Source: a virus
Virus record (IMG/VR): IMGVR_UViG_3300037847_000505
Span: 1-31,250 of that record
Strand: one strand, 5' to 3'
Length of the DNA stretch: 31,250 nt
Positions within the stretch are counted from its first letter, which is position 1; the number at the start of each line of letters is the position of its first letter. Below, one piece after another: positions 1 through 15,000 of the stretch. The position numbers were made by a program, and so were the translations under genes. Below the pieces are notes generated by a model that saw nothing but the letters and a program-made list of their open reading frames with translations, did no database searches and had not been told where the DNA came from.

Positions 1-71
1 ATAAGTTTGTGGAAGAATACAACAAACTAGTAACTAAATATGCAACACTAAAAAAAGATAAGGATAAATAA
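1..71 (+). CDS. C-terminal end of an unknown protein (partial)
   Basis: The reading frame is open from the window edge to a TAA at 69-71 and encodes the last 22 residues of a protein, ending KKDKDK. The tail is rich in Lys, Glu and Tyr and looks helical. The stop overlaps the next ATG by one base (TAATG), the same junction used throughout the window, which supports it as a real upstream gene of the same operon. Nothing can be said of its function; by position it belongs to the replication/recombination block. Confidence 0.6.
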   Translation, partial: KFVEEYNKLVTKYATLKKDKDK

Positions 72-712
72 TGCCAAAAACAATAGATGCAGTATATAAT
101 CCAGCAAATAGCAATGCTTGGAAACCAGTTGAAGAGGGTGAATACCCTGCTCACATTACAACTCTTGATACAAGAGAAGTAAATACTAAAGCAGGACCTG
201 CTATTGTTGTAAATATGCAATATAAGATAGCACCTGAAGTAGAAGAATGTACTCAACCATTGTATGAAATGGATGGATACAATTATATTACAGACTCTAA
301 TGGCGATTTAGTTCCTAAAGTTGGAACTGATGGTAATCAAGAGCATGGAACTTGTGAGCATCTAAAAGATAGAACATACAGAGACAATGGTACATTTGTA
401 TTTCTTGATAGTTCTTCTAGTGGTAAAAACTCTAGGTATTTTCAATTGTTAGAAAATCTAAATATAGAGTTAGAATCAGATAAAGTAGATGGTCAAGAAG
501 TAAAGAAACTTGTGCTTATTGAAGAAGATGATGTTGTAGGTAAAGCAGTTATAGTAAGACTTAAGAAAGAAACTTATGTAACTTCTAATACTAAACATCT
601 ACCTCCGAATGAGCAAGACGTTAGGTCTACATTCAAAGTTTCAAGTGTAAATACTTGGGATGGTGGTAAAGATATTACTGCTGATGAATTAGACGCTGAC
701 GTACCATTCTAA
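71..712 (+). CDS. SSB-like protein, DUF669-type
   Basis: A 213-residue protein, probably a single-stranded DNA-binding protein that protects replication intermediates and recruits partners. The N-terminal pattern (a short YNPANS-type opening, then VEEGEYPAHI, followed by a strand-rich OB-like region) resembles the DUF669 family found in phage replication operons. The C-terminus is acidic and ends DADVPF, which closely mimics the DDIPF-type tail through which bacterial SSBs bind other proteins. Its ATG overlaps the preceding stop (TAATG). Helicase, resolvase and methyltransferase genes follow downstream on the same strand, fitting a replication role. The family call is by pattern recognition; DNA binding itself is inferred. 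Confidence 0.65.
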   Translation: MPKTIDAVYNPANSNAWKPVEEGEYPAHITTLDTREVNTKAGPAIVVNMQYKIAPEVEECTQPLYEMDGYNYITDSNGDLVPKVGTDGNQEHGTCEHLKDRTYRDNGTFVFLDSSSSGKNSRYFQLLENLNIELESDKVDGQEVKKLVLIEEDDVVGKAVIVRLKKETYVTSNTKHLPPNEQDVRSTFKVSSVNTWDGGKDITADELDADVPF

Positions 713-725
713 AATAAAGTAATAT

Positions 726-821
726 AAAGGGGAGTGAAAGACATTTGTTCCTTTCGATTTTTTAATAATTCGTATGTGGGAAGAAAAGGTTGATAAATTG
801 GTTGGCATCAAACTCCCCTTT
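726..821 (+). ncRNA. candidate structured RNA with three-way junction
   Basis: A 10-bp perfect GC-rich stem pairs 726-735 with 812-821. Two further stems abut its inner ends with no unpaired bases: 736-740 with 751-755 (10-nt loop) and 790-794 with 807-811 (12-nt loop). This makes a compact three-way junction with one long single-stranded joiner (756-789). It lies in the only substantial non-coding gap of the early block, and the outer 3' strand runs into a T-rich stretch (819-828), so it could also end transcription. It may be a small RNA, a 5' leader element or a terminator-like structure. No known class was recognised. Confidence 0.4.
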
Positions 822-852
822 TACTTTTATCCGATTGGTTGTAAATTAGATA

Positions 853-917
853 GAGGGCGGTACTTATTTATATAAGTCTCTCTTCTCTCTCTTCTACTAC
901 CAAGAACGGCCGCCCTC
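853..917 (+). promoter_or_regulatory. GC-rich leader hairpin before a small gene
   Basis: An 8-bp perfect stem pairs GAGGGCGG (853-860) with CCGCCCTC (910-917). Inside it a 6-bp hairpin pairs 862-867 with 872-877, followed by a pyrimidine-only CT tract. The stem is strikingly GC-rich against an AT-rich background. It ends 25 bases before the ATG at 943, so it would sit in the 5' untranslated leader of that gene. It could be a regulatory leader, a processing site or part of the same RNA as the junction at 726-821. Confidence 0.4.
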
Positions 918-942
918 AAATTATAAACACAAAGGTATAAAC

Positions 943-1182
943 ATGAATGAAGCAACAGCAACTATAAAATTCACTAAATCAGAAATAGAAAACATAATAA
1001 TATCTCTTGTTCTTTCATCTAGGTCAGCAGAAATATTTAGTAATACAGAGATGAGTAGCAATATGACAAAGATAAAAGACGACTTAGTAAAAATAAAAAG
1101 AGATTTAAATAAAAAAGTAGAGGAGAAACAAAATGGATTATTGGAAGAAGGTCAAGCGCCGTATTGCAAAACTTGCGACTAA
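943..1182 (+). CDS. small early protein, unknown function
   Basis: A 79-residue protein that was not recognised. It is mostly helical, with many Lys, Glu and Ile, and a charged heptad-like stretch in the C-terminal half (about residues 45-66). It ends with a CKTCD motif, a single CxxC pair that could contribute to a metal site. It is the first gene after the structured gap 713-942, so its expression is the most likely to be affected by those hairpins. Its last 50 bases overlap the next gene in a different frame, which is unusually long for this genome. Confidence 0.6.
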   Translation: MNEATATIKFTKSEIENIIISLVLSSRSAEIFSNTEMSSNMTKIKDDLVKIKRDLNKKVEEKQNGLLEEGQAPYCKTCD

Positions 1183-1411
1183 GGCATTGAATGATAAGCC
1201 AGATTGGCAACCACCAAAGGGAGCAATATACTTAAAAGATGTCGAAGACGGACAGTTAATACAAGTATATAATTCAGAAACACAAGCAATAGTATTAAAT
1301 AAAACACCAAGTTCAGTTAGTGTATATGTGACTAATCATAGGTCTAATGACCCTTTCTATGCTGGAGAGCAACGATGGGGATTAGAAACGGAAGTGCAGG
1401 TAGTAAAATGA
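1133..1411 (+). CDS. small early protein, unknown function
   Basis: A 92-residue protein that was not recognised. It opens with a basic segment (KKVKRR), and the remainder looks like a small beta-rich fold (YLKDVEDGQLIQVYN, then SSVSVYV). The ATG at 1133 has a good ribosome binding site (GAGGAG, about 6 bases upstream) inside the preceding gene, which supports the long 50-base out-of-frame overlap. Its stop overlaps the next ATG (ATGA at 1408-1411). Confidence 0.6.
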   Translation: MDYWKKVKRRIAKLATKALNDKPDWQPPKGAIYLKDVEDGQLIQVYNSETQAIVLNKTPSSVSVYVTNHRSNDPFYAGEQRWGLETEVQVVK

Positions 1412-1569
1412 AAAATTATTATGACAAATCAAGACCAAGAGGATTCTTATTTAAAAGTGAAAAAGAATATTTAAAAGAAAGAGATAAATTTTTAAATGAA
1501 CATGGCAATGGATGGTGGGTAAGTTATTGTATAGATAAAAAAAATAAGAGAACAAGAGTAACAAAATAA
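1408..1569 (+). CDS. small early protein, unknown function
   Basis: A 53-residue basic protein with many aromatic residues (KNYYDKSRPRGF, GNGWWVSYC). The start at 1408 is chosen because it forms an ATGA overlap with the preceding stop, the usual junction here. An in-frame ATG at 1375 would add 11 residues and has a GGAGAG about 5 bases upstream, so it cannot be excluded. The function is unknown; the charge and size suggest a nucleic-acid-binding or host-interaction peptide, but that is only inference. Confidence 0.5.
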   Translation: MKNYYDKSRPRGFLFKSEKEYLKERDKFLNEHGNGWWVSYCIDKKNKRTRVTK

Positions 1570-1582
1570 AAAAGGAGAGAGA

Positions 1583-1774
1583 ATGGAAAAATGTTTTTCA
1601 TTAGAAGAGATAAAATTTGCTGTCGATGTATCAGTAGGAGATGGTGGACACAAAGCCAAGCAAGTGTCTGAAGTATTAATATCAATATGGAATGAACGAG
1701 AAAGATTATTAGAATGCAAGATACAAGACGAACAATCAAAAGCATATGAGGAGAAGAGAATCAATGGCCTATAG
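1583..1774 (+). CDS. small early protein, unknown function
   Basis: A 63-residue protein, unrecognised. The start has a strong ribosome binding site (AAGGAG, 7 bases before ATG). The N-terminal part (CFSLEEIKFAVDV) and the C-terminal half (about residues 26-60, Glu/Arg/Lys rich) are predicted to be helical. The last 11 bases overlap the following gene. Two long open frames on the opposite strand across 1492-1779 are its antisense shadows. Confidence 0.6.
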   Translation: MEKCFSLEEIKFAVDVSVGDGGHKAKQVSEVLISIWNERERLLECKIQDEQSKAYEEKRINGL

Positions 1775-2168
1775 AACAAGTAGGTTTAGCAAATGCCCTT
1801 CTTGTGGATTTGACCTCAATAACAGAGGTAATAAGATGGGTAAAGAAATGTCCGAGATGCTTAGAGCAAGAACAAAGTATACTAGAAATAAAATCAATAA
1901 CATAGCAACACTTATTAATGATTTGATACCATCACAAAACAGAACAGAATATTGGAAGTTTCTTGTGGGTATAAAAGATATAGATGATAAGATTGTAGAC
2001 TATGGTATTGAACAATACTATCAAGGTGGACATCATAATCAAGGTAAAGGGTTTCCTTATCTTAAAAAGATATTACAAACATTAGGACAAGATAACGAAG
2101 CAATAAAAGAACTAGAACGTAAAAGAATTGGTGGAGTTCCACCGATAATAAAAGTAGGAGAGAAATAA
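1764..2168 (+). CDS. hypothetical protein with N-terminal CxxC
   Basis: A 134-residue protein starting MAYRTSRFSKCPSCGFDL, with one CxxC knuckle that looks like half a zinc ribbon; no second Cys pair is visible, so zinc binding would need another ligand or dimerisation. The rest is helical and basic. The ATG at 1764 is preferred over the in-frame ATG at 1746 because GAGGAG lies about 10 bases before it. It sits directly before the DUF932-like gene, with a one-base TAATG overlap. It may belong to the replication machinery by context, but there is no family evidence. Confidence 0.6.
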   Translation: MAYRTSRFSKCPSCGFDLNNRGNKMGKEMSEMLRARTKYTRNKINNIATLINDLIPSQNRTEYWKFLVGIKDIDDKIVDYGIEQYYQGGHHNQGKGFPYLKKILQTLGQDNEAIKELERKRIGGVPPIIKVGEK

Positions 2169-2941
2169 TGAAAGCAAATATACAAGACATAATGTTTCCT
2201 GTTAAAGAAATGCCAGCAAAACTAGGAAATAAAAAAGATACTGGATATAAATTTATTGTAAGAGAAGATACTGGAGATGTCTTATCTTGCATGACAGATA
2301 ATTACAGACTTATTAATAACTCTACAATCTTAGAGAAATCTGACAATATAATTAGTAAAGAAGGTGGTAATCTAAAAGAAGTTCAAACTTTTGGTAACGG
2401 AGCAAGAAGTATTGTAAAGTATGAGTTTGATAAGCATAAAATTACTATCAGTAATGGTGATATATGTACACCAGAAATAGTATGGTCAAATAGTTATGAT
2501 GGAACTGTTGGATTGAATATTATAGCAGGAGCATTCAGATTAGTATGCACAAATGGATTGGTAATTGGTGTTGTTGCTGATAAATACAAGAACAAACACA
2601 TCATACAAAACATGGACTTGCAAGATATTGAAGGTGTGATTGAAGAAACAATTAAGAAAACAAAACGAATTATGAAAGATGAGTTTCCTATTATTCATGG
2701 TACTAGAGTTCAGCAATCACATATTGTTGATATACTCAAGATGTTTCCATTACAATCATCAGATTACATTACTAATCTACTAATTGCAGAAAATCCTAAT
2801 AATCTATGGGACCTGCTAAATGTAGCAACTAATGTAGCAACTCATGGTATGGATAGAAAAGCAGAAGCTACACACAAGTTAGAAGCAAGAATCTATGCTA
2901 AGATATGCAAGATGGCAAAGGTACATATAGCTAGTGCCTAG
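2168..2941 (+). CDS. DUF932-like protein
   Basis: A 257-residue protein matching the general layout of DUF932 phage/plasmid proteins. It has YRLINNSTILEKSDNI near residues 47-62, a GARSIVKYEF strand, a NSYDGTVGLNIIAGAFRLVCTNGLVIG core (about residues 108-135), and a helical C-terminal half. Members occur widely in phages and plasmids beside replication and recombination genes, but their biochemical role is not settled. The start overlaps the preceding stop (TAATG) and its end overlaps the methyltransferase start by 8 bases. The family call rests on the VCTNG core and the flanking strands. Confidence 0.65.
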   Translation: MKANIQDIMFPVKEMPAKLGNKKDTGYKFIVREDTGDVLSCMTDNYRLINNSTILEKSDNIISKEGGNLKEVQTFGNGARSIVKYEFDKHKITISNGDICTPEIVWSNSYDGTVGLNIIAGAFRLVCTNGLVIGVVADKYKNKHIIQNMDLQDIEGVIEETIKKTKRIMKDEFPIIHGTRVQQSHIVDILKMFPLQSSDYITNLLIAENPNNLWDLLNVATNVATHGMDRKAEATHKLEARIYAKICKMAKVHIASA

Positions 2942-3776
2942 TCTAGATTGGTACGATTGCCCGATTGTACTTCCTTATTATGGGGGTAAATATGAGATGA
3001 GTAAAAAACTTATCCCTCTTTTGCCCCCTCATGAGAGGTATATAGAAGTGTTTGCAGGCGGTCTTTCTATGTTCTTTAGGAAGGCCAAAGCAAAATGGAA
3101 CGTACTTAATGATAAAGATAAGAACATTGTAAATCTTTACATGAGTGTTATCTTAAAAAGAAAAGAACTAATAGATAATTTATTTTGGATTCCCAAAAGT
3201 CGTGATTTATTCTTAGATTTCAAAGGAGAGATAAGAGATGAAAATTATACATTCGAGATACCTGACCCATTACAAGCTGCGAAGTATCTGTATTGTATAC
3301 GATATAGTTTTAATAAACTAATTCATACTCCATTCTCAATGAATAAAGATATGAACAAAAACTGGGAAGAAGAATTGACATATTCAAGAAAGTTTTTAGG
3401 TGGTGCAACAATAGAGAATTTAGATTTTGAAGAACTTATTGATAGGTATAATCCTAGAAAAGGTGATTTCTGGTATCTAGACCCTCCATATATTGTAGCA
3501 ACAGAGAAAGGCTCATATTATAATCATAGTTTTGATATGGAAGACCATGTAAGATTACGAGAATGTGTACAAAAAATTCATGATAATGGTGGATACTTTA
3601 TGGTAAGTTATGATTACAGAGAAGAAGTTGCTGATTTATATCAGGACTTTGATTGTAGAACTCTTGATTGGAAATATGTAGGAGCAACTGATGAAGCTAG
3701 ACAAAAAGGTAGAAAAGAATATGTTATAATAAATTATGAACCAACACAACAAATAAATATATTTAAGGAGGATTAA
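2934..3776 (+). CDS. dam: D12-class DNA adenine N6-methyltransferase
   Basis: A 280-residue enzyme that transfers a methyl group from S-adenosylmethionine to adenine N6 in a short DNA target. The N-terminal PYYGGK (residues 14-19) and IEVFAGG (37-43) form the cofactor site, and the catalytic DPPY is at residues 183-186 (YLDPPY). The start is a GTG at 2934. It is preferred over the first ATG (2995) because that ATG would remove the PYYGGK motif, although no good ribosome binding site is visible; coupling to the upstream gene (8-base overlap) probably supplies ribosomes. No restriction enzyme gene is nearby, so this is an orphan phage methylase, likely protecting the genome or marking it for replication or packaging. 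The recognition site cannot be predicted. Confidence 0.9.
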   Translation: MPSLDWYDCPIVLPYYGGKYEMSKKLIPLLPPHERYIEVFAGGLSMFFRKAKAKWNVLNDKDKNIVNLYMSVILKRKELIDNLFWIPKSRDLFLDFKGEIRDENYTFEIPDPLQAAKYLYCIRYSFNKLIHTPFSMNKDMNKNWEEELTYSRKFLGGATIENLDFEELIDRYNPRKGDFWYLDPPYIVATEKGSYYNHSFDMEDHVRLRECVQKIHDNGGYFMVSYDYREEVADLYQDFDCRTLDWKYVGATDEARQKGRKEYVIINYEPTQQINIFKED

Positions 3777-5095
3777 TGAACGAAGAGATAAAAGAAATAA
3801 AAACATTACCACACTCCGAAGATGCAGAAAAAGCTTTGCTTGGATGTATACTTAAAGGTGATGCAAGAGAGCAAGAGATTGCTATGGCTTGGGTAAGAAG
3901 TAATGAAGCATTCTATAATAATGATTGTAAAGATGTTTGGGTTGCATTCAAAGAATTGTACAGAGACCAAATAGATATAGACTTTATTACTTTATCAGAC
4001 AAAGTACAAGAAATGAGTGGTAAACAACTTGCATACTTTATGACTGGACTTACTGATTTTGCACCAAGCACTGCTAATGTTGAGAACTATGCAAAGATAA
4101 TATGGCAAAAGTACATACAAAGAGAAACTGCAAAGTCAGCAACTAAACTTGTAGATGCTAGTTATGATAATAATGGTAGTGTAAAAGAAATATTGAGTGA
4201 GCATAACAAACTTATTCAAGAACTAAAGAACATACAACCATCTAAGCAAGTAGATATGAACGTATTGATTGAAGACATGAAGAAAGTAATGGAAGAAGAT
4301 TCTAATCTAATACCATTTAACTTAGCACATCTTGATTCATTCGCAGGTGGTATGACTCGCAAAGAGATTACTGTTGTTGGAGGTAGACCCGGTCATGGTA
4401 AGACTACACTTATAATTAATATTATTCGTGGACTTATCTATCAGGGATACAATGTAATGCTATTTAATCGTGAGATGTCTAATACAGAAATGCTTAAAAA
4501 GATGGTAGTTATGGAAAGTAAAGGTCTTGAATATGGTCATGTTCGTAGAAATGAACTTAATGATGATAGTAAAGAAGAGTTTGAAATAACATCTGACTTT
4601 ATGAAAGAGAAGTACAGAAATCTAATAATGTATGATAACATACGAAGTCTAGATGATTGTCTAAGAGAAATATCTAAGCATAAACCAGATGTTGTTATTG
4701 ATGACTACATACAATTGATTCAAGTAGATGGTATTAAAGAAGGTAGACGATTCGAGATTGAAAAGATTATGCAAGAATACAAATGGATTTCTAAGTCTGA
4801 AGATTGTAGTGTTATCTTAGTATCTCAACTTAACAGAGAGATTGAGAAACGTATTGACCCTAGACCTAGAATGAGTGATTACGCAGAAAGTGGTGTAATT
4901 GAACAAACAGCAGAGTCTGCTATGTTTGTATTCTATGGACATAACTTTGATAGCGAAAGATATGACCAACACAAAAGTGAAATTATTGTAGCTAAAAGTA
5001 GATATGGTAGGATAGGTACACATCAAGTTGGATTTAATGGTAATCGTTGTAAATTCTACATGAATGATAAACTAGCGAAAGATGATTCAAAATAA
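3776..5095 (+). CDS. dnaB: replicative DnaB-type DNA helicase
   Basis: A 439-residue helicase that unwinds the phage replication fork using ATP. It has the DnaB N-terminal domain (SEDAEKALLGCIL near residues 14-26, which normally binds primase), a linker, and a RecA-like C-terminal domain. Walker A is GGRPGHGKTT (202-211), Walker B is VVIDDY (306-311) and the SVILVSQLNRE motif spans 345-355. The downstream arginine-containing segment PRMSDYAESGVIEQ matches the hexameric DnaB pattern. The length is typical. The start overlaps the methyltransferase stop (TAATG) and has AAGGAGG just upstream. No primase gene or fused primase domain is visible, so a separate primase should lie outside the window or be supplied by the host. 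Confidence 0.95.
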   Translation: MNEEIKEIKTLPHSEDAEKALLGCILKGDAREQEIAMAWVRSNEAFYNNDCKDVWVAFKELYRDQIDIDFITLSDKVQEMSGKQLAYFMTGLTDFAPSTANVENYAKIIWQKYIQRETAKSATKLVDASYDNNGSVKEILSEHNKLIQELKNIQPSKQVDMNVLIEDMKKVMEEDSNLIPFNLAHLDSFAGGMTRKEITVVGGRPGHGKTTLIINIIRGLIYQGYNVMLFNREMSNTEMLKKMVVMESKGLEYGHVRRNELNDDSKEEFEITSDFMKEKYRNLIMYDNIRSLDDCLREISKHKPDVVIDDYIQLIQVDGIKEGRRFEIEKIMQEYKWISKSEDCSVILVSQLNREIEKRIDPRPRMSDYAESGVIEQTAESAMFVFYGHNFDSERYDQHKSEIIVAKSRYGRIGTHQVGFNGNRCKFYMNDKLAKDDSK

Positions 5096-5384
5096 ATCTT
5101 GTAATGGCTGCTACTACGAACATGATAGGACCTGTTATTGGTTTGAACTTGTTAATGGTAGCAGTCCAAAGATAATACCTGATGATACATTTAATAAAGG
5201 ATGTAAGCAGTATAACAATACTACAATAGGTAATCAAACTATGGATGAGATAACTACTAAAGTAATTAATGTATTCAAAGGTGAGATAATAGGAGATAAA
5301 TATACTCCTACAAAATGGTCTGGTAATTACAAGAAGAAAACATATACTACAAGACACAAGTATACAGAAAGGAAAGACTTCTAA
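5082..5384 (+). CDS. Cys-rich small protein, possible zinc binder
   Basis: A 100-residue protein with a cysteine cluster at its N-terminus (CNGCYYEHDRTC, then GCKQY about 25 residues later), which could bind one zinc ion. The C-terminal half is basic and polar (KKKTYTTRHKY). Such small Cys-cluster proteins are common in phage replication operons and have no assigned job. The start overlaps the helicase end by 14 bases; the stop overlaps the resolvase start (TAATG). The position between helicase and resolvase suggests DNA metabolism, which is inference only. Confidence 0.65.
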   Translation: MIQNKSCNGCYYEHDRTCYWFELVNGSSPKIIPDDTFNKGCKQYNNTTIGNQTMDEITTKVINVFKGEIIGDKYTPTKWSGNYKKKTYTTRHKYTERKDF

Positions 5385-5911
5385 TGATTACTATAGGAAT
5401 AGACCCAGGTCGTAGTGGAGGAATTGTATTTGTAAATGGTGATACAATAATTGAAATGTATAAATGCCCAAAAACTATAGAAGAGATGGCAGAAATATTA
5501 GAACCATACAGAATGACATGGGAAACTACAACACCAATTACAGCATACATTGAGCAAGTACACGCATTCCCAACTGATGCTCGTAGCAGTGCATTTAAAT
5601 TCGGTACTAACTATGGGATTTGGCAGGGTCTGCTAGCAGCTAATAAGATAGAAACAAAGTTCATTGCTCCACAAGTATGGATGAAGTCATTAGAGTTACC
5701 AAAAGATAAAGTAAGTAGAAAAAAAGAAATAAAAATAATTGCGCAAAGAGTAATTGATAAACAAGACTTACTAAAAAAGAAAGTAACACTACATACTGCT
5801 GATGCTGTTCTTATAGGAATGTTTGGAGTTTTAAAAACTGCATTAGATAATATGAATTTAAAAGATAAAATTAATACATTAACTAAATTAAAGAAGAGAG
5901 GAAATAAATGA
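5384..5911 (+). CDS. ruvC: RuvC-type Holliday junction resolvase
   Basis: A 175-residue nuclease of the RNase H-like RuvC family that would cut four-way DNA junctions made during recombination and replication, freeing concatemers for packaging. The acidic catalytic set is present: D7 in the opening strand (IGIDPGRSGG), E57 in YIEQVH, and D140 in HTADAVLIG. The length and motif order match phage RuvC-like proteins. There are no ruvA or ruvB genes nearby, as usual for phages. The start forms TAATG with the preceding stop and has AAAGGA upstream. Confidence 0.85.
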   Translation: MITIGIDPGRSGGIVFVNGDTIIEMYKCPKTIEEMAEILEPYRMTWETTTPITAYIEQVHAFPTDARSSAFKFGTNYGIWQGLLAANKIETKFIAPQVWMKSLELPKDKVSRKKEIKIIAQRVIDKQDLLKKKVTLHTADAVLIGMFGVLKTALDNMNLKDKINTLTKLKKRGNK

Positions 5912-6102
5912 TATTACAAAAGTCTAAAAAAGAAATAGATAATTTTATAATAACAATGAATAATGTAGAATCAACATTAAAAATTTTATCTAATAGTCAA
6001 GAAACAGATTCAGCAATTAAAATACTTACCGAACTTGTAAGTGTAACTGAATTACTTGTTGAGATATTAGAACAAAGAAAAGAAGAAACTTTTACCGCAT
6101 GA
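5908..6102 (+). CDS. small helical protein, unknown function
   Basis: A 64-residue protein that was not recognised. It appears to be two helices with regular hydrophobic spacing (STLKILSNS; SVTELLVEILEQ), possibly a helical hairpin or a dimerising coiled coil. It is the last gene of the rightward block, overlapping the resolvase stop by four bases (ATGA), and ends 22 bases before the hairpin at the convergent junction. It could modulate the resolvase, but that is only position-based. Confidence 0.6.
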   Translation: MILQKSKKEIDNFIITMNNVESTLKILSNSQETDSAIKILTELVSVTELLVEILEQRKEETFTA

Positions 6103-6123
6103 TTCTCCTATAGCGTGTAAACG

Positions 6124-6157
6124 GAATGAGCAGGTACTATCTCTTGCCTGCTCGTTC
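6124..6157. terminator. hairpin at the convergent gene junction
   Basis: An 11-bp stem pairs 6124-6134 with 6147-6157 (one G-U pair, perfect GAGCAGG/CCTGCTC core) around a 12-base loop. It lies between the end of the rightward block (6102) and the last codons of the leftward late block (stop at 6137-6139, inside the loop). A shared bidirectional terminator is the natural reading, but neither side is followed by a clean T tract, so termination may be weak or Rho-aided. It may instead protect the 3' ends of the mRNAs. Confidence 0.5.
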
Positions 6158-9079
6158 TAATTCTCTTAATGAATTTTGTATATCAACTGGTAATCCAGAA
6201 TACTTTTTCTTTTTAAGTCTACCTTTTTCTTCAAGTTTGTCAAAGTAATAATCTTTAATAAATTTATTCTCTGATTTCCTTAATGGTTCTTCTAACAAAT
6301 CTCTATATAATGAACCTTGTTCTTTATTAGTAGGATAGAATGTCATCTCTTGAAAAGCAGCTGCTCCTAAACCATAAGGTGTTTTAACAGTCATTGGTAC
6401 ATATCTATCATATGTTCTACCTGCCATTTGATTAATAAGTCTTATGTATTGACCCATCATATCGCTTGAACTTAAATCTTTATTTGCTAATCCAAAGTCT
6501 CCAGCAGTAATAAGTATGTTATCTAAGTATTCACTATCAGCATTAATTAATTCTGTTGCTATACCTATATCAAAGATAGTACCAAATGTAGGACCTAACT
6601 TAGAACCAATAAGACCCTTACCATAAAACTCTTTGTTAAGTTTTTCTAATTGTTCTGGGTCATCATAATCAGTAAATAATATATGATATAAATCTTCTAG
6701 TATTTCTTTACCAGTGTGTTCAACAAGTGTTTGATTATATCCTGCTATATAACTAAGAAGAGCAGGTGCTAAGAAATATGCTGTTGATACATTCATCATT
6801 TTATGTACGCCTCTAGCATCTTTTAACCAATTAGAAAAATTATCTTCACCTAATGCAGACAAGTCTCCTTTAAATTCTTTATATATAGAGTAATTTCTTT
6901 CAAGAAATTCCATACCATAATGTTGAAACTGAAACATAAATTGACCAATACCTTCTCTCATATTCTTTGCTTTAGCATATGCATTATAATCAAAATGATT
7001 TAATATAACCATATTCTTTGCATAAGCTCTCATCATATCTCTTCTCATTTTATTTTTAACAGATTGAACAGTTCCTTTACCAGTCTTTTCAACTTGTTCT
7101 TCTGCTAGTTTTGTTAGATATTTTTGAAACTTTGGCTTCTTAGTTAGTTTATGCACTTGAGCAAATGCAATCTCAGCAGTTAATTTTCTATTCTTATTTT
7201 CTACTGCTCTATGCATACCAGAACTCCAATTAGCAAGTTTGCTCATGTTGCTTCCAAATATTTTTACTCCTTTATATAAAAAGTTTTCTTCATCGGAATA
7301 AACTATCTTACCATTCTCATCCATTCTTCTTACTTTGTGAGACCTTGCTGATTCAGGACTTATACCTGATTCTATTAATGCTTCTGATGTCTCCATAAAT
7401 AAGTTTTCTTTTCTTAAAAACTCATCTAAATCTAAACCTAATACATCACTAGCTTTATTTTCTTTTAAATATGCTCTTGAATCTTGAACTGCTCTATATC
7501 CAAATGTTGCATAGTTCATTAAATACTGAGTAGCATTTCTAGCTGCTGACCTTACACTAAATCCTAATTTATTTGTAAACTGATATGATAGTAATGCTTT
7601 TTTTAATTCATGAAGAGAACCAGAATTTTGTATCTCACCATTAACAGAACCATACAAACTATTAATCATATCAACTATTTTAGATGAGTATTCATTTTCT
7701 TTTGTATACATACTCTTAGCTTCTGTTAGTGATTCGATAAAACTTTTCTTAAGAAATGCTTGAGTATTAAATTTATTTACATCATTAATATATGTTTGAA
7801 CTACATCAATAAAATTCATGCTGTAGTCTTTATTCTTATCATCTCTAGCTTTAGCATAACTAGGTAATGCAACTGATATATTATCTATAATATCTTCTAT
7901 TGATTTACCAGTATGTTTCATATCTATACTGGTATCATCTAGTTCATCAAAATGCTTCATCATATTATCCATCATCTGAGCATTTAATTGCCTAGTAAAA
8001 TGAGGAAAGTATCCATCTTCTTTATACTTAGGCATTAACTCGCCTTGCATTTTATCTTTTAATTCTTTTAACTTAGTTATGCTTGTAGCAAATCCTTTTC
8101 TATTCTCTAATTTTTTTATGTGTACATCTATCTTAGCATTAATACCTGCTCTAAGAACTGAATAAGAATCAGTCATTAAATTATTATAATCAATTAATGA
8201 TTGAGTTATATCTTCTGGCATATTTAATTGTCTAAAATATTTTAAAGATTCATCATCTGTAAGTCTTACTAATTTTGTACCATTGTCGTATTCTTTAATT
8301 CTTTCTCTAGCTTCTTTTATTACTTTTCTTTCTTTACGTTTAATACCTTTAAGGTCTTGCAGACTTCCATCTTCATTTATTCTAGCAATAATTCTTTCAT
8401 CATTATACTTTGCTAATATTGCTTTTGGCATTTTAGTTTCAATAATATCTATAAATTCTGTAAATGTTTTAACAGAACCATCTCTCTCAAACTTTGTTAA
8501 TATTTCATACTTTTCATCTATATCTTTTTGAACACCACTATCTAATGCTTTAATATAATCTAATTCTAATTGTCTATGTTTTTTTAATGATGCATTTAAT
8601 CTTCTTTCGCTAAATATACCACCAACATCTGAAGAACCTCTTAATCCATCTATTATTTTTTTAAATTTAAGATTTAAATCGCTACTTCTTTTTTTATCAC
8701 TATCTACTACTTCTCTGATTGATTTAATAGTTTTAGCAAGAACAGGGTCTCTTTTACCAAGTACAGTTCCCACCATAAATCCTTCAGCAACTTCAAACTC
8801 ACTAAACTTACCACTATCAACTCTCTTAGCATAACTATATAAATCTTTTATAAATGCATTTATGTTGCCTCTAGTTAAAAATGCTCCACCTTGAGCATCA
8901 CTAAGTAATACTGCATAATCCATTGGTATATGAAATCTAGATTCAAACATTGACATCGCTGCTTGATAAGGAGCTTGTATATTCTTATTTACTATTTCAG
9001 TATCTGCCCATTTACTAATAGAGTTCCAAAGTTTTAATGCTTTCTTATTATTTATATTATCGCAACTTACTACTGACAT
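6137..9079 (-). CDS. large putative ejected virion protein (980 aa)
   Basis: A 980-residue protein, mostly helical and charged, probably an internal virion/ejection protein that enters the host with the DNA. The C-terminal half has features of large polyvalent phage proteins: a VRSAARNATQYLMNYA segment, a GQFMFQFQHYGMEFLERNY segment, and hydrophobic stretches (AYFLAPALLSYIAG; LIGSKLGPTFGTIFDIG) that could insert in membranes. No catalytic motif was recognised. It is the last gene of the late block and starts inside the end of the 2909-residue gene (10-base overlap). The ATG is preceded by GGGAGAG about 8 bases away, so independent initiation is possible. A TTTAAAA slippery heptamer at the overlap could instead fuse the two by a -1 shift. 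Confidence 0.7.
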   Translation of the reverse strand: MSVVSCDNINNKKALKLWNSISKWADTEIVNKNIQAPYQAAMSMFESRFHIPMDYAVLLSDAQGGAFLTRGNINAFIKDLYSYAKRVDSGKFSEFEVAEGFMVGTVLGKRDPVLAKTIKSIREVVDSDKKRSSDLNLKFKKIIDGLRGSSDVGGIFSERRLNASLKKHRQLELDYIKALDSGVQKDIDEKYEILTKFERDGSVKTFTEFIDIIETKMPKAILAKYNDERIIARINEDGSLQDLKGIKRKERKVIKEARERIKEYDNGTKLVRLTDDESLKYFRQLNMPEDITQSLIDYNNLMTDSYSVLRAGINAKIDVHIKKLENRKGFATSITKLKELKDKMQGELMPKYKEDGYFPHFTRQLNAQMMDNMMKHFDELDDTSIDMKHTGKSIEDIIDNISVALPSYAKARDDKNKDYSMNFIDVVQTYINDVNKFNTQAFLKKSFIESLTEAKSMYTKENEYSSKIVDMINSLYGSVNGEIQNSGSLHELKKALLSYQFTNKLGFSVRSAARNATQYLMNYATFGYRAVQDSRAYLKENKASDVLGLDLDEFLRKENLFMETSEALIESGISPESARSHKVRRMDENGKIVYSDEENFLYKGVKIFGSNMSKLANWSSGMHRAVENKNRKLTAEIAFAQVHKLTKKPKFQKYLTKLAEEQVEKTGKGTVQSVKNKMRRDMMRAYAKNMVILNHFDYNAYAKAKNMREGIGQFMFQFQHYGMEFLERNYSIYKEFKGDLSALGEDNFSNWLKDARGVHKMMNVSTAYFLAPALLSYIAGYNQTLVEHTGKEILEDLYHILFTDYDDPEQLEKLNKEFYGKGLIGSKLGPTFGTIFDIGIATELINADSEYLDNILITAGDFGLANKDLSSSDMMGQYIRLINQMAGRTYDRYVPMTVKTPYGLGAAAFQEMTFYPTNKEQGSLYRDLLEEPLRKSENKFIKDYYFDKLEEKGRLKKKKYSGLPVDIQNSLRELERAGKR

Positions 9080-12000
9080 TTTAAATACTCTCCCATCTTA
9101 TTAAATACTTCATATCCACTATCTTTTAATGGATTCTGTCTCGCTGCCGTATGTAATGCATTATTTGCTTCACTAACTACCTTTAACATATTTATTGCTT
9201 TATTAGGAGACTTAGCCTGCTTTGGTTCATACTTTAAAAACTCCATGTGAGCATACATAGGATTGTTTTTTATATTATCAGGTAACATATTATCACCTGC
9301 TATATTATATATATCTTTTCTCATCATATCTAAAAAGTCTTTATCTAATGACATTCTTAAATGAGCATATTTAATTGGATTTAAATAATCTTGTCTAGCA
9401 GAAAACTCTTCTAAGTCATTTAATCTTTGTAAAAAATCTTGGTATTTTTCTGCATTTGCATCTGGAATTAAGTCTGCATAATCAGAGTACATTCTCATAA
9501 CAGATTTATTAATTGTTGATAATGGATTGTTTGGAAGCATTTCTTTAGTCCAACTAAAATCACTAGAGTTTTCATTTAATCTCATTCTAGTATTCTTATC
9601 AAACCCCATTATTCCAAATCTTTCATGGTTTAAATTATTAAAATCTATTAATGATGTATCTTTATTAAAGAATATTCTGTAATGATTATTGCCTTCCATA
9701 ATTGATTTCAATACAAATTCAGATACTTTCTGTCCTCTTTGTTTTACAGATTCATCTTTAGCAAATTCAATATTACCTCTTGCAAACCCTGTAAGTAATT
9801 GTATTCCCTGTTTATATCTAGCAGTTTCTTTGTATGGAATAGATATTGGCCTATTATTAAATACTCCTATATCATCTTTGTTTCTTCTAGGTTCCATGTA
9901 TGCATAAAGAAAATTTAACTTATGTTTTTCAACCATTTTAGTTAAGTATTGATTTCTTAAATCTGAAATTGTTGATATGTTAGGTCTATATTCTCTAATC
10001 ATTTTCATTAAGTCTTCATTATCAACTAATGTTCTATCTTTAAATGCTAATACTTCATCTATTAATGCGCCTTTACCATACTCTAGTCTATTAAAATCAA
10101 GTATAGTCTTCATGTCTTTTCTAGCTTCATCACCCAATGTATCATACCAACTATCATAGTTCATACCATAACCAAATCCTCTTAGTAAGGAATCCATTGT
10201 ATTTGCATGAACAACGCTATCTACTAAATCAGAATTAGATTCTATAGATACATAGTTTTTATACTTTAAATCTTTTGTATGTAATTTATTTTTTGGAACT
10301 TTATATTGATTTTGTAACTTATCTTTCATCTTATTAATTACCCAATCAATACTTTTTACTTTAGATTGTTTCCATTTTTCTGGATACTTACTTCTTCTAA
10401 TATAATTTTTGTTTTTATCTAATCTTTTTATAGTAGCAATGATGCTATTAAATTGTTGAGTATCACTTTTAATACCTTTAGTTAATCTATCCAATGAAGA
10501 TTCAAAATCATCTAATTCTGCTTGAGACATTTCCTGTGTTTCTATAGTAGTGTTTCCATCATCGTCAGTCTTTATTTGACCAGGCTCTATAGCAATTAAA
10601 GATTTAAACCAATTATCCATTACCATATGATTAGCTGTCGTCATATGATATTCTCTTTTATTATCTAAAAATTCTTTATCTGCTATTTTTACTGCAATTC
10701 TATCTAAATAATTACCGCCCTGACCTTGAGCAATATTCTGTATCCTACTTTTAGTCTTATTAAAGAAGTCATTTTCTGGATTAATTAAATCATCTAAATA
10801 TTTACTATTTGCTTTATCTAAATCTTTTCTCTTCCAAGACTTAGGAAAGAAGTGTCTATTTAATGACTTATATATATCTTCATGAAACTCTTTAAATGCT
10901 TTACTACCGATAGCCATATCATAAAAACTTGTTTTTCTTTTCTGTCCACCTTCGTAAGTATCATCTCCAAAAGAAGCTAGTAATTTATTTTGTTGATTTA
11001 AAAATTCTTTAATAACTAGTTTATCTGCTTCATTCAAAGCTACTTCTCTATATATACCATCACTATCTAGCTTAAACCTTTGAAAGATTCTTATTCTTCT
11101 TCCATCTCCATTTCTACCCCTAGCATATATTTCTCTAGAATCTTGCGCATCTGCATTCTTAGGACTTAATGAGTTATCTAAATCAGGAAATAAAAATTTA
11201 TCAGACCATTCATATAAATTATTACCAAGTTTCTTATTAAATTTGTTTGCTCCATCAATAACATATTGAACTTCTAAAGCAGCCCTTTGAAAGTAAGAAA
11301 GTGATTCTGTATCCATTGTAATTATTTCAGTATTATTACCATCGTTATCTTTACCTGCTTCATATAAAACTCCAGGTCCTACTAATTCACCATTGACATT
11401 TTGCCTTATTATATTTCTCCACTTTCTATCATTTAATTTGTTTATCTTATCTTGTTCTGATTCATATGTTAAATGACTTATATCAGTTAAGTTTTGTAAA
11501 TAATTAAGTTTTCTATGTGTTTTTTGTACAATACCTATTCCTTTTTTAAATGCTATAGCGTTACCTATTTTAGACAGAACTGTATTTCTTGATGTAGTTG
11601 CATCTAAAGCAAATGTAAACTCTGAGCCTTCTTGAAGTTTAGATATATCAACACCTTGAACAAAGTGAGCATCGTTTCTTTTTATATAATCAAACATATA
11701 ATCACTATGTGCAAAAAAGTAATCTACTTTATCAGCATCGTAATCACCTTCATATATATTAGCAATATCATAACTATTTATCTCTACTGCTAGTCCAGTA
11801 TCTTTATCTAAAAATCCTTTCAGTCCCAGTAAAGTAATATCATTAGGTCTTGTTCTTGGGTTTCTTCTAGATATGATTCCTAATTGGTATCTACTTTTAA
11901 TACCTTCTTTATTTAAATCTTTATTATACTTTAATAAAACTCCATGAATAGCTTCTAATGTCATTGCATTATCAAATTGTTTGTCAAACTCTTTATCAAA

Positions 12001-15000
12001 CTCTTTGTTATTATATTGCTCTATCTTTTTTAAATCTTGTTTAAACTCTTCAATAGTAAATACTGCTTCGTTATTTACAATACGTATTTTCTTTCTACCT
12101 AACTTAGTTAAATCAGATTCTCTTTCTGCATCAGGCAGCATTATTTCACCCCTGAGAATCATCTTTCTATCTTTATTAAATAAAGTTGGTAGTAATCTGG
12201 TTTTTAATTTTCCACCTTGATGAGCTCCAGCAGTTTGTACAAGAGGTCCTTGACCACCATATCTAAAAGCATCTTGTTTGTCTTGCGAATATACATGATT
12301 TACTATTGCTCTTCTATTGCTAAATATATTATCAATATATACTTTAGATAAATACTTGTTTACTTGAGCAGAACTATAATCATTAGGGTTAGCACTTCTA
12401 TCTAATTGTAAAAAGTATACAAAGTTACTAAGATTTTTTAATGCTCCATCTTCTGCATCGTCAGGTATATTACCTTTGTTTAATTGCTCTAACATAAAAC
12501 TTCTTAACTTAAATGAATCTGATTTAATATTATCCATATAAGTAAGACTAGCATCTAGTTCATCTACCATCTCTCTAAAAGCTGCTTCATGTTCTCTTCT
12601 ATTCATATAGTTATAATCTGCATCTGATTCACTAGCAGATATTCTAACAGCTTCTTTTTCTGGTCTTAATCCTATACCATCTAAATCTATTTCTTTTACA
12701 AGATTTGAATATGTTTGACCACTTTTTTGACCAATTTGAAAATCATTTAATTCACTCCATCTAGTATCTCTTATAATAGATATATCTGTTCCTTCTTTAT
12801 CTGCCTTAACATCATATGCTTTAGCTCCACTTTTAGTAAGTAGAACATCAACAGGATTATTTTTAAAAAACTTACTTAAGGAAGGACTGTAAACAAATAA
12901 TGTTTTACCATATAATAATGTTTTACCTTCGCCTTGAGATGATATAACAGGTTTTATTGGACTTTTAGAGTTAGGACTATGACCCATAATAGTATGCATT
13001 TCCATCATCATATCTTTAGATAAAAATGATATACTATCAAAAGCTGAAACATCTGCGTGAGCTTCACCTATAGTATGCTTTGTACTAAAATTTTCTAACT
13101 CAGGATATTGGTCTTTGTATTCTGTAATAACATCATCTATTAAAGTAGACATTGTTTCAGTACCTTCGTCATCCCATACTGCTATTCTATATTTACCTTT
13201 ATGTTTTTCTAATCTATTTTTTAATACTTGTGTAGATTTTTTATCACCATTTTTTACTATTTCTTTTGCATCTATTAATGCTTCGTAAAATGTTTTATCT
13301 GACCTAATAAAGTTTTTAGTTGTAGCAAGTTTCATTCTTTTAAGATATGTATCTACATTCTTTGCTGAATTTTCATTTAATACTCTGTAAAATACTTCAT
13401 TGTCTTTACTTCTATACGCTGCTTCATAAATTAAAAACCTAGTAGCTAACTCAATATTTTCACCTGTGTAATCGTAATCTTGTTTTGCATTTTTAAATTC
13501 TTTTACAAGTTTCTTTACTTGTCTTTTAACATTTGCATTATCTATTTTTGAAATATGGTCTTTACTAAACCTTATAAAATCTTGAGCAATCTTAGATGAA
13601 CTACTTCTGTCTATAACTATGCTATCTAATCCATCAAATATATCTAACTTAAGCATTCCTCCTTTATTGCCTTTATCAGCAATTTGTATATTGTCTTGAG
13701 ATAGAGCGCTTAAATTTTTATTAAGTAAATTATTACCTAAATAGTTTTGTACTTGACCTCGTAAGAATAATATGTGTGATTTTTGATTATCACTTAATCC
13801 TTGTGTGCTTAATATATTATATGACTTTTCTGTTACATATCTACCAAACTCTGTATATACTACATTGTTATCAAATATACCATAATCAAGACCAAGAGAT
13901 TCTAATTTATCAAATATAGGATTACCTTGCATTACTTCCCTAGAAGTAGCATCATCATTATAAATTACTTCACCATTAACAATAGATACTTTCTTAACAG
14001 ATTTTCTTTTTAATACACCTCTTACTACTTGTGTTAAATCTTGTATTACTTTATCTTGGTCTTTACCATCCATGTCATCAAACTTAATATCATCTTTTAC
14101 AAGAGTTTTTGCAACATTAATTAAGTTTGCTTTAGGAACTTTATTACCTAAGTCATCTAAAATAAAATCTAATCCTTTTAAATGGTCAGATTTCCATTCA
14201 GAACTTTGGTCTCTATAATCTATAAAATCTCCTTCTCCATCTATGACTTCATTAAAAAATTTATATTTTCTAAAAAATTCATCAACGCCCATTGAAGGAG
14301 TTACATCTTCATCTAATGCTTTTTCTTGATACCTAAGTTTAATTTTCTCTCTTTCTTTTATTTCATTTTCAACATAATGATTAACACCTTGACCATCTAA
14401 ATTATCTATAATAGGATTTAATGCTTCTTTAAAATCTTTACTAATATCTGATTGTAAATCTAATATCTTTTGTCTTTCTTCTTCTGTCTTTGCTTCACCT
14501 AATTCATTATTTAATTTTTCAATTGTAAACTTTTTGTTTACTTCTAAATTACCATCAGCATTTCTATCAATAATACCCTGTCTTTTTAACATAGAAAGTA
14601 TTCTTATCTGCCCTCTCTTACCAAATACTTGCATATATGCTAACATTCTATTCTTAGGACTTTCTAATCCACTATTTGTTAATGCTCTAAATAGGTTTTC
14701 CATACCCATATTTTCATTAGCTGTTGCAACATTATAAATAGAATCATATAAAAATTTTACTTCTTCTACTTGAACCCCAGTTAATACTCTTACTTTATCT
14801 GATATATTAACAACTCCAGATTCTTTATCTAACTCGTTAATTTTTTTATTATATTCATTCTGAAAGTCTCTATCTTCAGGAGCATCTATTTTATTTAATG
14901 TAAATCCTCTTAATCCACCTTCTCCTAATAAACCTCTTTCACTAAGTAATGAATTACCTGATTGTTGTACAATAAAATCTATGTCAGCTTGAGATGCAAC

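Follow-up and report, generated by a model that had tools for sequence, protein, structure and literature searches.

A terminator-like RNA junction and a leader-like RNA downstream of an SSB-like gene in marine viruses

Comparison among related loci suggests that the gap downstream of an SSB-like gene in a marine virus of microbes holds two separate RNA structures. The first, element A, starts 13 nt past the stop codon of that gene and, judged by comparison, is a real, selected RNA structure, which an earlier note on this DNA had spotted correctly and drawn partly wrongly. We put at about even the chance that it forms the 3' end of the SSB-like gene in the manner of a terminator, with a fast-evolving three-way junction as its cap. 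The second, element B, lies just downstream at 835-917. Its comparative support is far stronger than that of element A, and on this evidence it is the broader and less expected discovery of the two. We infer the functions of both elements from comparison.

The SSB-like gene, its relatives and the reach of element A

The window, meaning the whole stretch of DNA analysed, is an entire IMG/VR virus record of 31,250 bases. Plus-strand genes occupy bases 1-6102, and the larger frames in the remainder are on the minus strand. The plus-strand genes include:

71-712, plus strand: SSB-like gene (213 aa, C-terminal ...ELDADVPF); element A follows its 3' end
within 1-6102, plus strand: small genes downstream of the SSB-like gene
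2168-2941, plus strand: DUF932 gene
2934-3776, plus strand: D12 DNA methyltransferase gene
3776-5095, plus strand: DnaB helicase gene
5384-5911, plus strand: Holliday-junction-resolvase-like gene

On the minus strand, a single frame of 2909 codons (9070-17799) takes up more than a quarter of the record. A terminator-like hairpin of 14 pairs (6123-6158) lies between the convergent plus-strand and minus-strand gene blocks.

The label 'SSB-like' for the product of 71-712 is reasonable, not proven. Its AlphaFold2 model has a mean pLDDT of 77.8, and the best Foldseek matches of that model are ssDNA-binding OB-fold proteins, all weak, including PrgE (E 7e-4, TM 0.31) and the SSB of S. coelicolor (E 9e-3). 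The protein also ends in ...DVPF, which we take to be an SSB-like tail motif. Searches of Pfam, PHROG, PDB sequences and the proteins of 50,697 cultivated-phage records returned no match to the protein, and window bases 1-4000 had no nucleotide match in the cultivated-phage records. Among GTDB genomes, a relative is encoded on one contig (L226), from a MAG labelled Flavobacteriales.

IMG/VR yielded 12 loci when searched with the SSB-like protein and 72 when searched with a profile; the bases after the SSB-like stop codon were inspected for 70 loci. Element A was seen in ten of these (L134-L141, L188 and, in reduced form, L006), and a pattern scan added two more (L207 and L214). The copies in L134 and L136 are identical to that of the window, letter for letter. 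The other loci of the 70 have element B within tens of bases of the gene, other structured sequence, or a contig end. In a tree of 70 SSB-like proteins (L143 and L203, which are cut by contig ends, were omitted and L204 was dropped by the program), all 12 rows bearing element A fall together with L006 in one group with support 100/100.

Element A is thus confined to one clade of marine viruses of microbes. A stricter pattern for the element recovered seven contigs, all already members of the clade, and among the matches listed for a loose loop pattern, TTGGTTGGCNNCAAAC, none of the checked loci L014-L093 had the motif followed by element B. A covariance model of element A run on 50 records gave clear matches (at least 39 bits) only in nine records bearing the element, at its known place; the remaining matches listed were antisense images of the element or scored below 24 bits. 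The model gave 19.0 bits at the hairpin of L006, and its best site elsewhere in the window reached 17.1 bits.

Anatomy of element A

The earlier note had drawn three stems, and all are present in the window at 726-735/812-821 (AAAGGGGAGT with ACTCCCCTTT), 736-740/751-755 (GAAAG with CTTTC) and 790-794/807-811 (TTGAT with ATCAA). They were said to abut without gaps; both inner stems do abut the outer one, but 34 nt (756-789) separate them from each other. Such an arrangement is unlikely by chance, as the earlier note said: with both inner stems abutting, it is reached by none of 100 shuffled windows and by none of 4000 shuffled copies of the 230-nt intergenic region, in a test that was shaped after the fact. 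One outer stem in the window has 10 or more Watson-Crick pairs, 5 or more G/C and arms 40-130 nt apart; 100 dinucleotide shuffles have 0.07 such stems on average. The folding energy of the whole element is mildly unusual (z -1.98; 9 of 200 shuffles do equally well), and the predicted fold of the window copy lacks the left inner stem, 736-740/751-755.

The relatives keep the outer stem, with compensation, and not the drawn inner pairs. Together they point to the following parts:

726-735, plus strand: P1 5' arm, pairing with 812-821 (10 bp, 5 G-C)
750-755, plus strand: candidate P2 5' strand, pairing with 783-789 with A784 bulged; relatives form an equivalent stem
783-789, plus strand: candidate P2 3' strand, with equivalent stems in relatives
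798-811, plus strand: P3 hairpin TTGG-[TTGGCA]-TCAA, flush against P1
812-821, plus strand: P1 3' arm, covarying with 726-735
820-830, plus strand: T-rich tail with an interrupted U-tract, TTTTACTTTTAT, present in 11 of 11 element-bearing sequences

P1 shows the compensatory changes whose absence from relatives the earlier note had named beforehand as a refutation. Across 10 distinct sequences, 96.9% of 96 cells are paired, and double changes occur at four of the ten pairs (11 cells, against 3.6 in shuffles; 0 of 500 shuffles reach this), counts that cover 10 of 11 sequences (L006 was too short to align), that are favoured by the choice of arms by eye, and of which only about four unlike stem groups are independent. 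Slid out of register, the arms pair at only 40-74%. Stem variants within the clade include AAAGGGGAGT/ACTCCCCTTT, AAAGGGGAAGTTT/AAACTTCCCCTTT and AGAGAAGTAGTTA/TAACTACTTCTTT; P1 of L141 is AU-rich, and the T-rich tail is also found in two sequences with a quite different P1. In a cruder cross-pairing test, arms form a mean of 11.1 of 13 pairs with their own partners and 9.1 with arms from other stem groups, a test made weaker because all P1 arms are purine-rich on one side.

The right inner stem survives as the 3' hairpin P3, which abuts P1 in relatives, though in a different register from the pairs drawn. All 10 aligned relatives have TTGGC unchanged in its loop, and the P3 stem varies (TTGG/TCAA, TTGG/CCAA, TGATT/AATCA, TGGTT/AATCA, ATTGG/CTAAT, AATGTTGG/CTAATATT and AATTAT/GTAATT). 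P3 and P1 are 0-2 nt apart in most sequences; extra pairs intervene in L141 and L188. The left inner stem had to be given up: relatives do not keep it, and 751-755 pairs with 783-788 instead, so that it and P2 (750-755/783-789) are mutually exclusive. Equivalents of P2 are CTTTTCGT/ACGAAAGG in L135 and GTCTTTCGA/TTGAAAGGC in L137 and L138. P2 is poorly conserved in length and sequence, and it is the least certain part, since the minimum-energy fold of the window copy gives yet another interior. The interior as a whole ranges from 7 to about 115 nt among relatives (76 nt in the window). By comparison, then, P1, a flush-stacked P3 and a variable P2 side domain would make up a three-way junction.

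No reading frame is kept across element A in relatives, whose lengths differ freely, so coding was rejected. Nor did the junction match a recognised class: there were no Rfam matches at gathering score in the window or in 20 relative loci, and permissive scans returned only unrelated families (E 0.096 or worse), by which a known Rfam class for element A was rejected. A tRNA scan found none, and no hammerhead-like core was found in element A by eye.

A terminator-like reading of element A and its rivals

Of the three roles suggested for the junction (terminator, leader sensor or phage small RNA), termination agrees best with the comparison, in which all 11 sequences have a T-rich tail and L006 has a bare terminator hairpin; the leader-like object is instead the separate RNA at 835-917, not the drawn junction. 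Under this reading, element A would be transcribed together with the SSB-like gene, and P1 and the T-rich tail would stop RNA polymerase, acting like an intrinsic terminator of the SSB-like transcript. Pre-folded P2 and P3 would join the distant P1 arms, substituting for a short loop. A weak promoter that overlaps the tail would restart transcription, and the restarted transcript would be a separate pseudoknotted leader (element B) ahead of the next small gene.

The reading is preferred mainly because L006 retains the closing stem and the tail in a form called terminator-like. This locus keeps only a AAGGGGAGTT-GTCGTTA-AACTCCCCTT hairpin of 10 pairs and loop 7; the whole interior is gone. A terminator scan of L006 gave two sites, one per strand, against 0.1 in shuffles. 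As L006 is nested inside the clade, with L137-L139 and the window as its sister group (joint fork 92/92), stem and tail would be the part not lost, and the simplest history would be one gain of element A with later interior loss in L006. A promoter-like TTTATA-17-TATATT spans the tail of L006; the window's own promoter match is poor (8/12 by hand count) and absent from the scan listing.

Like intrinsic (Rho-independent) terminators, element A has a GC-containing stem that runs directly into a T-rich tail behind a gene; here the stem is the 10-bp P1 with 5 G-C, and the tract is interrupted. The L006 hairpin is a standard short-loop case. The window copy departs from such terminators in that its interior is a structured 76 nt instead of a short loop, with a second hairpin loop that is invariant, and in that its U-tract is interrupted. 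A terminator scan of the window reported seven sites, element A not among them, because its interior is 76 nt and the scan accepts loops of 3-8 nt; the window copy may therefore work like a terminator rather than be a canonical member.

A bare terminator does not explain the constancy of TTGGC in 10 of 10 sequences. A loop kept while its stem changes would suit a regulated terminator (attenuator), in which a factor recognises the P3 loop or P2, decides whether P1 forms and so controls read-through into element B and the small genes. The flush contact of P3 with P1 and the position between two transcription units are also consistent with this. Its ligand might be the SSB-like protein, by analogy with T4 gp32, which represses its own mRNA through a pseudoknot (PMC535899). 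We nevertheless consider an attenuator unlikely: L006 persists without P2 and the P3 stem, no covarying alternative antiterminator pairing was found, and P2 shows poor conservation of both length and sequence. Less probable again is a discrete small RNA, processed from the SSB-like transcript and acting in trans, with P1 stabilising both ends. The compact closed fold with its near-flush stems and a constant loop sequence able to base-pair would fit, but relatives have interiors whose lengths lie more than 100 nt apart, and L006 has none, which leaves no constant seed besides TTGGC, and the element occurs in one clade only. Slightly less probable still is clade-specific filler, an insertion that can form a hairpin and is tolerated where it stands, between the SSB-like gene and element B; other clades do have unrelated structures or nothing in the same gap, each structure confined to its clade, but P1 covariation and the constant TTGGC point to selection on the fold.

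We also rejected a kissing interaction between the element A loop and element B, as the partner CCAA is absent, by reading, in L141 and L188. A putative anti-Shine-Dalgarno role of the pyrimidine strand of element B was weighed by eye.

Element B and the variable gap before it

Element B is best described by its strands in the window:

835-843, plus strand: S0 5' strand, TTGGTTGTA, pairing with 895-903 with one U-U mismatch
848-855, plus strand: S1 5' strand, its last three bases common to S2
853-861, plus strand: S2 5' strand, GAGGGCGGT, covarying across 42 sequences
862-877, plus strand: inner hairpin ACTTAT-TTAT-ATAAGT, as read from the sequence
882-890, plus strand: S1 3' strand, pyrimidine-rich
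895-903, plus strand: S0 3' strand, TACTACCAA
909-917, plus strand: S2 3' strand, GCCGCCCTC; the ATG of the next gene (943) is 25 nt on

The crossing helices S1 (6 bp) and S2 (10 bp) carry the comparative case. In 42 distinct sequences, 94.8% of 649 cells are paired, with double changes at 9 of 16 pairs (52 cells, against 17.0 in shuffles; 0 of 500 reach this); slid out of register, they pair at 45-61%. S2 alone is 97.8% paired with double changes at 5 of its 10 pairs, a figure partly by construction, because 41 of the 42 rows were picked by a pattern needing at least six outer S2 pairs (the remaining one, L158, was a manual addition); the choice made no use of S1 and S0. Extended S1 is 92.5% paired across 361 cells, with double changes at 5 of 9 pairs. 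Variants include GGGCGG/CCGCCC, GGGTAG/CTACCC and GGGTACTC/GAGTACCC for S2, and GATGAG/CTCATC against GACGAG/CTCGTC for S1. As S1 extends three pairs into the first strand of S2, three bases can serve either helix, and element B would be either a pseudoknot whose junction is contested or a pair of mutually exclusive states.

S0 adjoins S1. It is perfect in L006 and L140 (TGGTAGTA/TACTACCA) and has counterparts in other subclades (GCACTAAGG/CCTTAGTGC in L147, GCCGAGAG/CTCTCGGC in L189 and AATACTAAGG/CCTTGGTATT in L171), being clear in several and weak or absent in others. In the window it is weak, as 13.5% of shuffles reach its best ungapped stem. This mismatched S0, together with an S1 that is imperfect in the window clade, speaks against a uniform fold. 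Just before S1, nearly all relatives have TAAATT, TATATT or a near form (842-847 in the window); this could be a -10 box from which a transcript starts at S1, or it could belong to the S0-S1 junction. L190 has a shorter stretch before this motif, which argues against a fixed -35 spacing.

A covariance model of element B matches 47 of 50 related viral records, usually once and beside the SSB-like gene, and gives none in G012, G048 and G049; besides these, it gives a weak match of 24.7 bits in G020 and a weak antisense overlap in G043. Where genomes carry extra genes in the gap, element B sits beyond them. The first ATG of a frame follows S2 by 17-32 nt in 42 of 42 aligned rows, and these first genes fall into five groups (33, 6, 1, 1 and 1 rows), which means that element B is not bound to any single gene.

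The gap between the SSB-like gene and element B carries clade-specific structures, of which three further types are:

type 2, ACTGAGGAGCTGACCGAAGTATGA...GAATAGTAGGAGGCTCCTCAGT: L166 3157-3275, also L167, L170, L172, L173 and L176; six loci, one clade (98/99)
type 3, ATAAGGCTAGGTATTGCC...TTATGGCTCTAGCCTTAT: L144 3150-3242, L148 3150-3233 and L142 3292 onward; similar in L204 3126-3186 and L226 3128-3188
type 4, GGTGTTGAAGCG...CGCAGAGTTCGCC: L144 3247-3332 and L177 3145-3256

Type 2 has conserved internal loop strands, CCGAAGTATGA and GAATAGTAGG, reminiscent of a loop-E motif; its permissive Rfam scan gave only U6atac (E 0.94), and nothing credible. Type 3 has a conserved GGTAT...TTATGGCTC adjoining the closing stem, and a type 3-like element is also present in the contig binned as Flavobacteriales (L226). 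Types 3 and 4 together make up four rows of one clade (97/95). Gap structures had no Rfam match at gathering score in the 20 loci scanned, and element B had no Rfam match.

Several described RNAs invite comparison. The T4 gp32 operator is a pseudoknot of about 28 nt upstream of the SSB gene itself, followed by UUAAA repeats (PMC535899). Like element B, and not element A, it is a pseudoknotted RNA near a phage SSB gene; the differences are that element B measures about 83 nt and is found downstream of the SSB-like gene, ahead of a different gene. We rejected a gp32-type autoregulatory operator on that arrangement (five kinds of following gene, 42 rows). HK022 putRNA, an RNA antiterminator of about 70 nt, has two stem-loops and occurs twice per genome (PMC9378689). 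It resembles element B as a structured RNA heading a phage early transcript and may be a functional parallel; element B differs from it in its crossing helices and its usually single copy. The manA, wcaG and PhotoRC-II motifs, candidate structured RNAs of marine metagenomes and of phages, cyanophages among them (PMC2864571), differ in having Rfam entries (RF01745, RF01761 and RF01717), to which cmscan of our elements gave no match. A literature search found no recognised description of such elements, which does not prove their absence from print.

A bolder picture, which we consider unlikely, is that the gap is an RNA control hub. Element B would be a new leader class whose 5' purine strand is held by either of two overlapping, separately conserved partners, as a switch or pseudoknot that sets expression of the next gene; element A would be one of several clade-specific gates, a terminator with a TTGGC hairpin read by a phage or host factor. 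What began as a reader's hunch is now a testable map, in which a covarying, clade-specific, terminator-like junction adjoins a leader RNA conserved across a marine phage lineage, neither of them in Rfam. The gap ahead of element B offers a natural series of different RNA folds tried at one position, and should element B work as a switch or an antiterminator, uncultivated phages would have in it a general device for controlling early genes.
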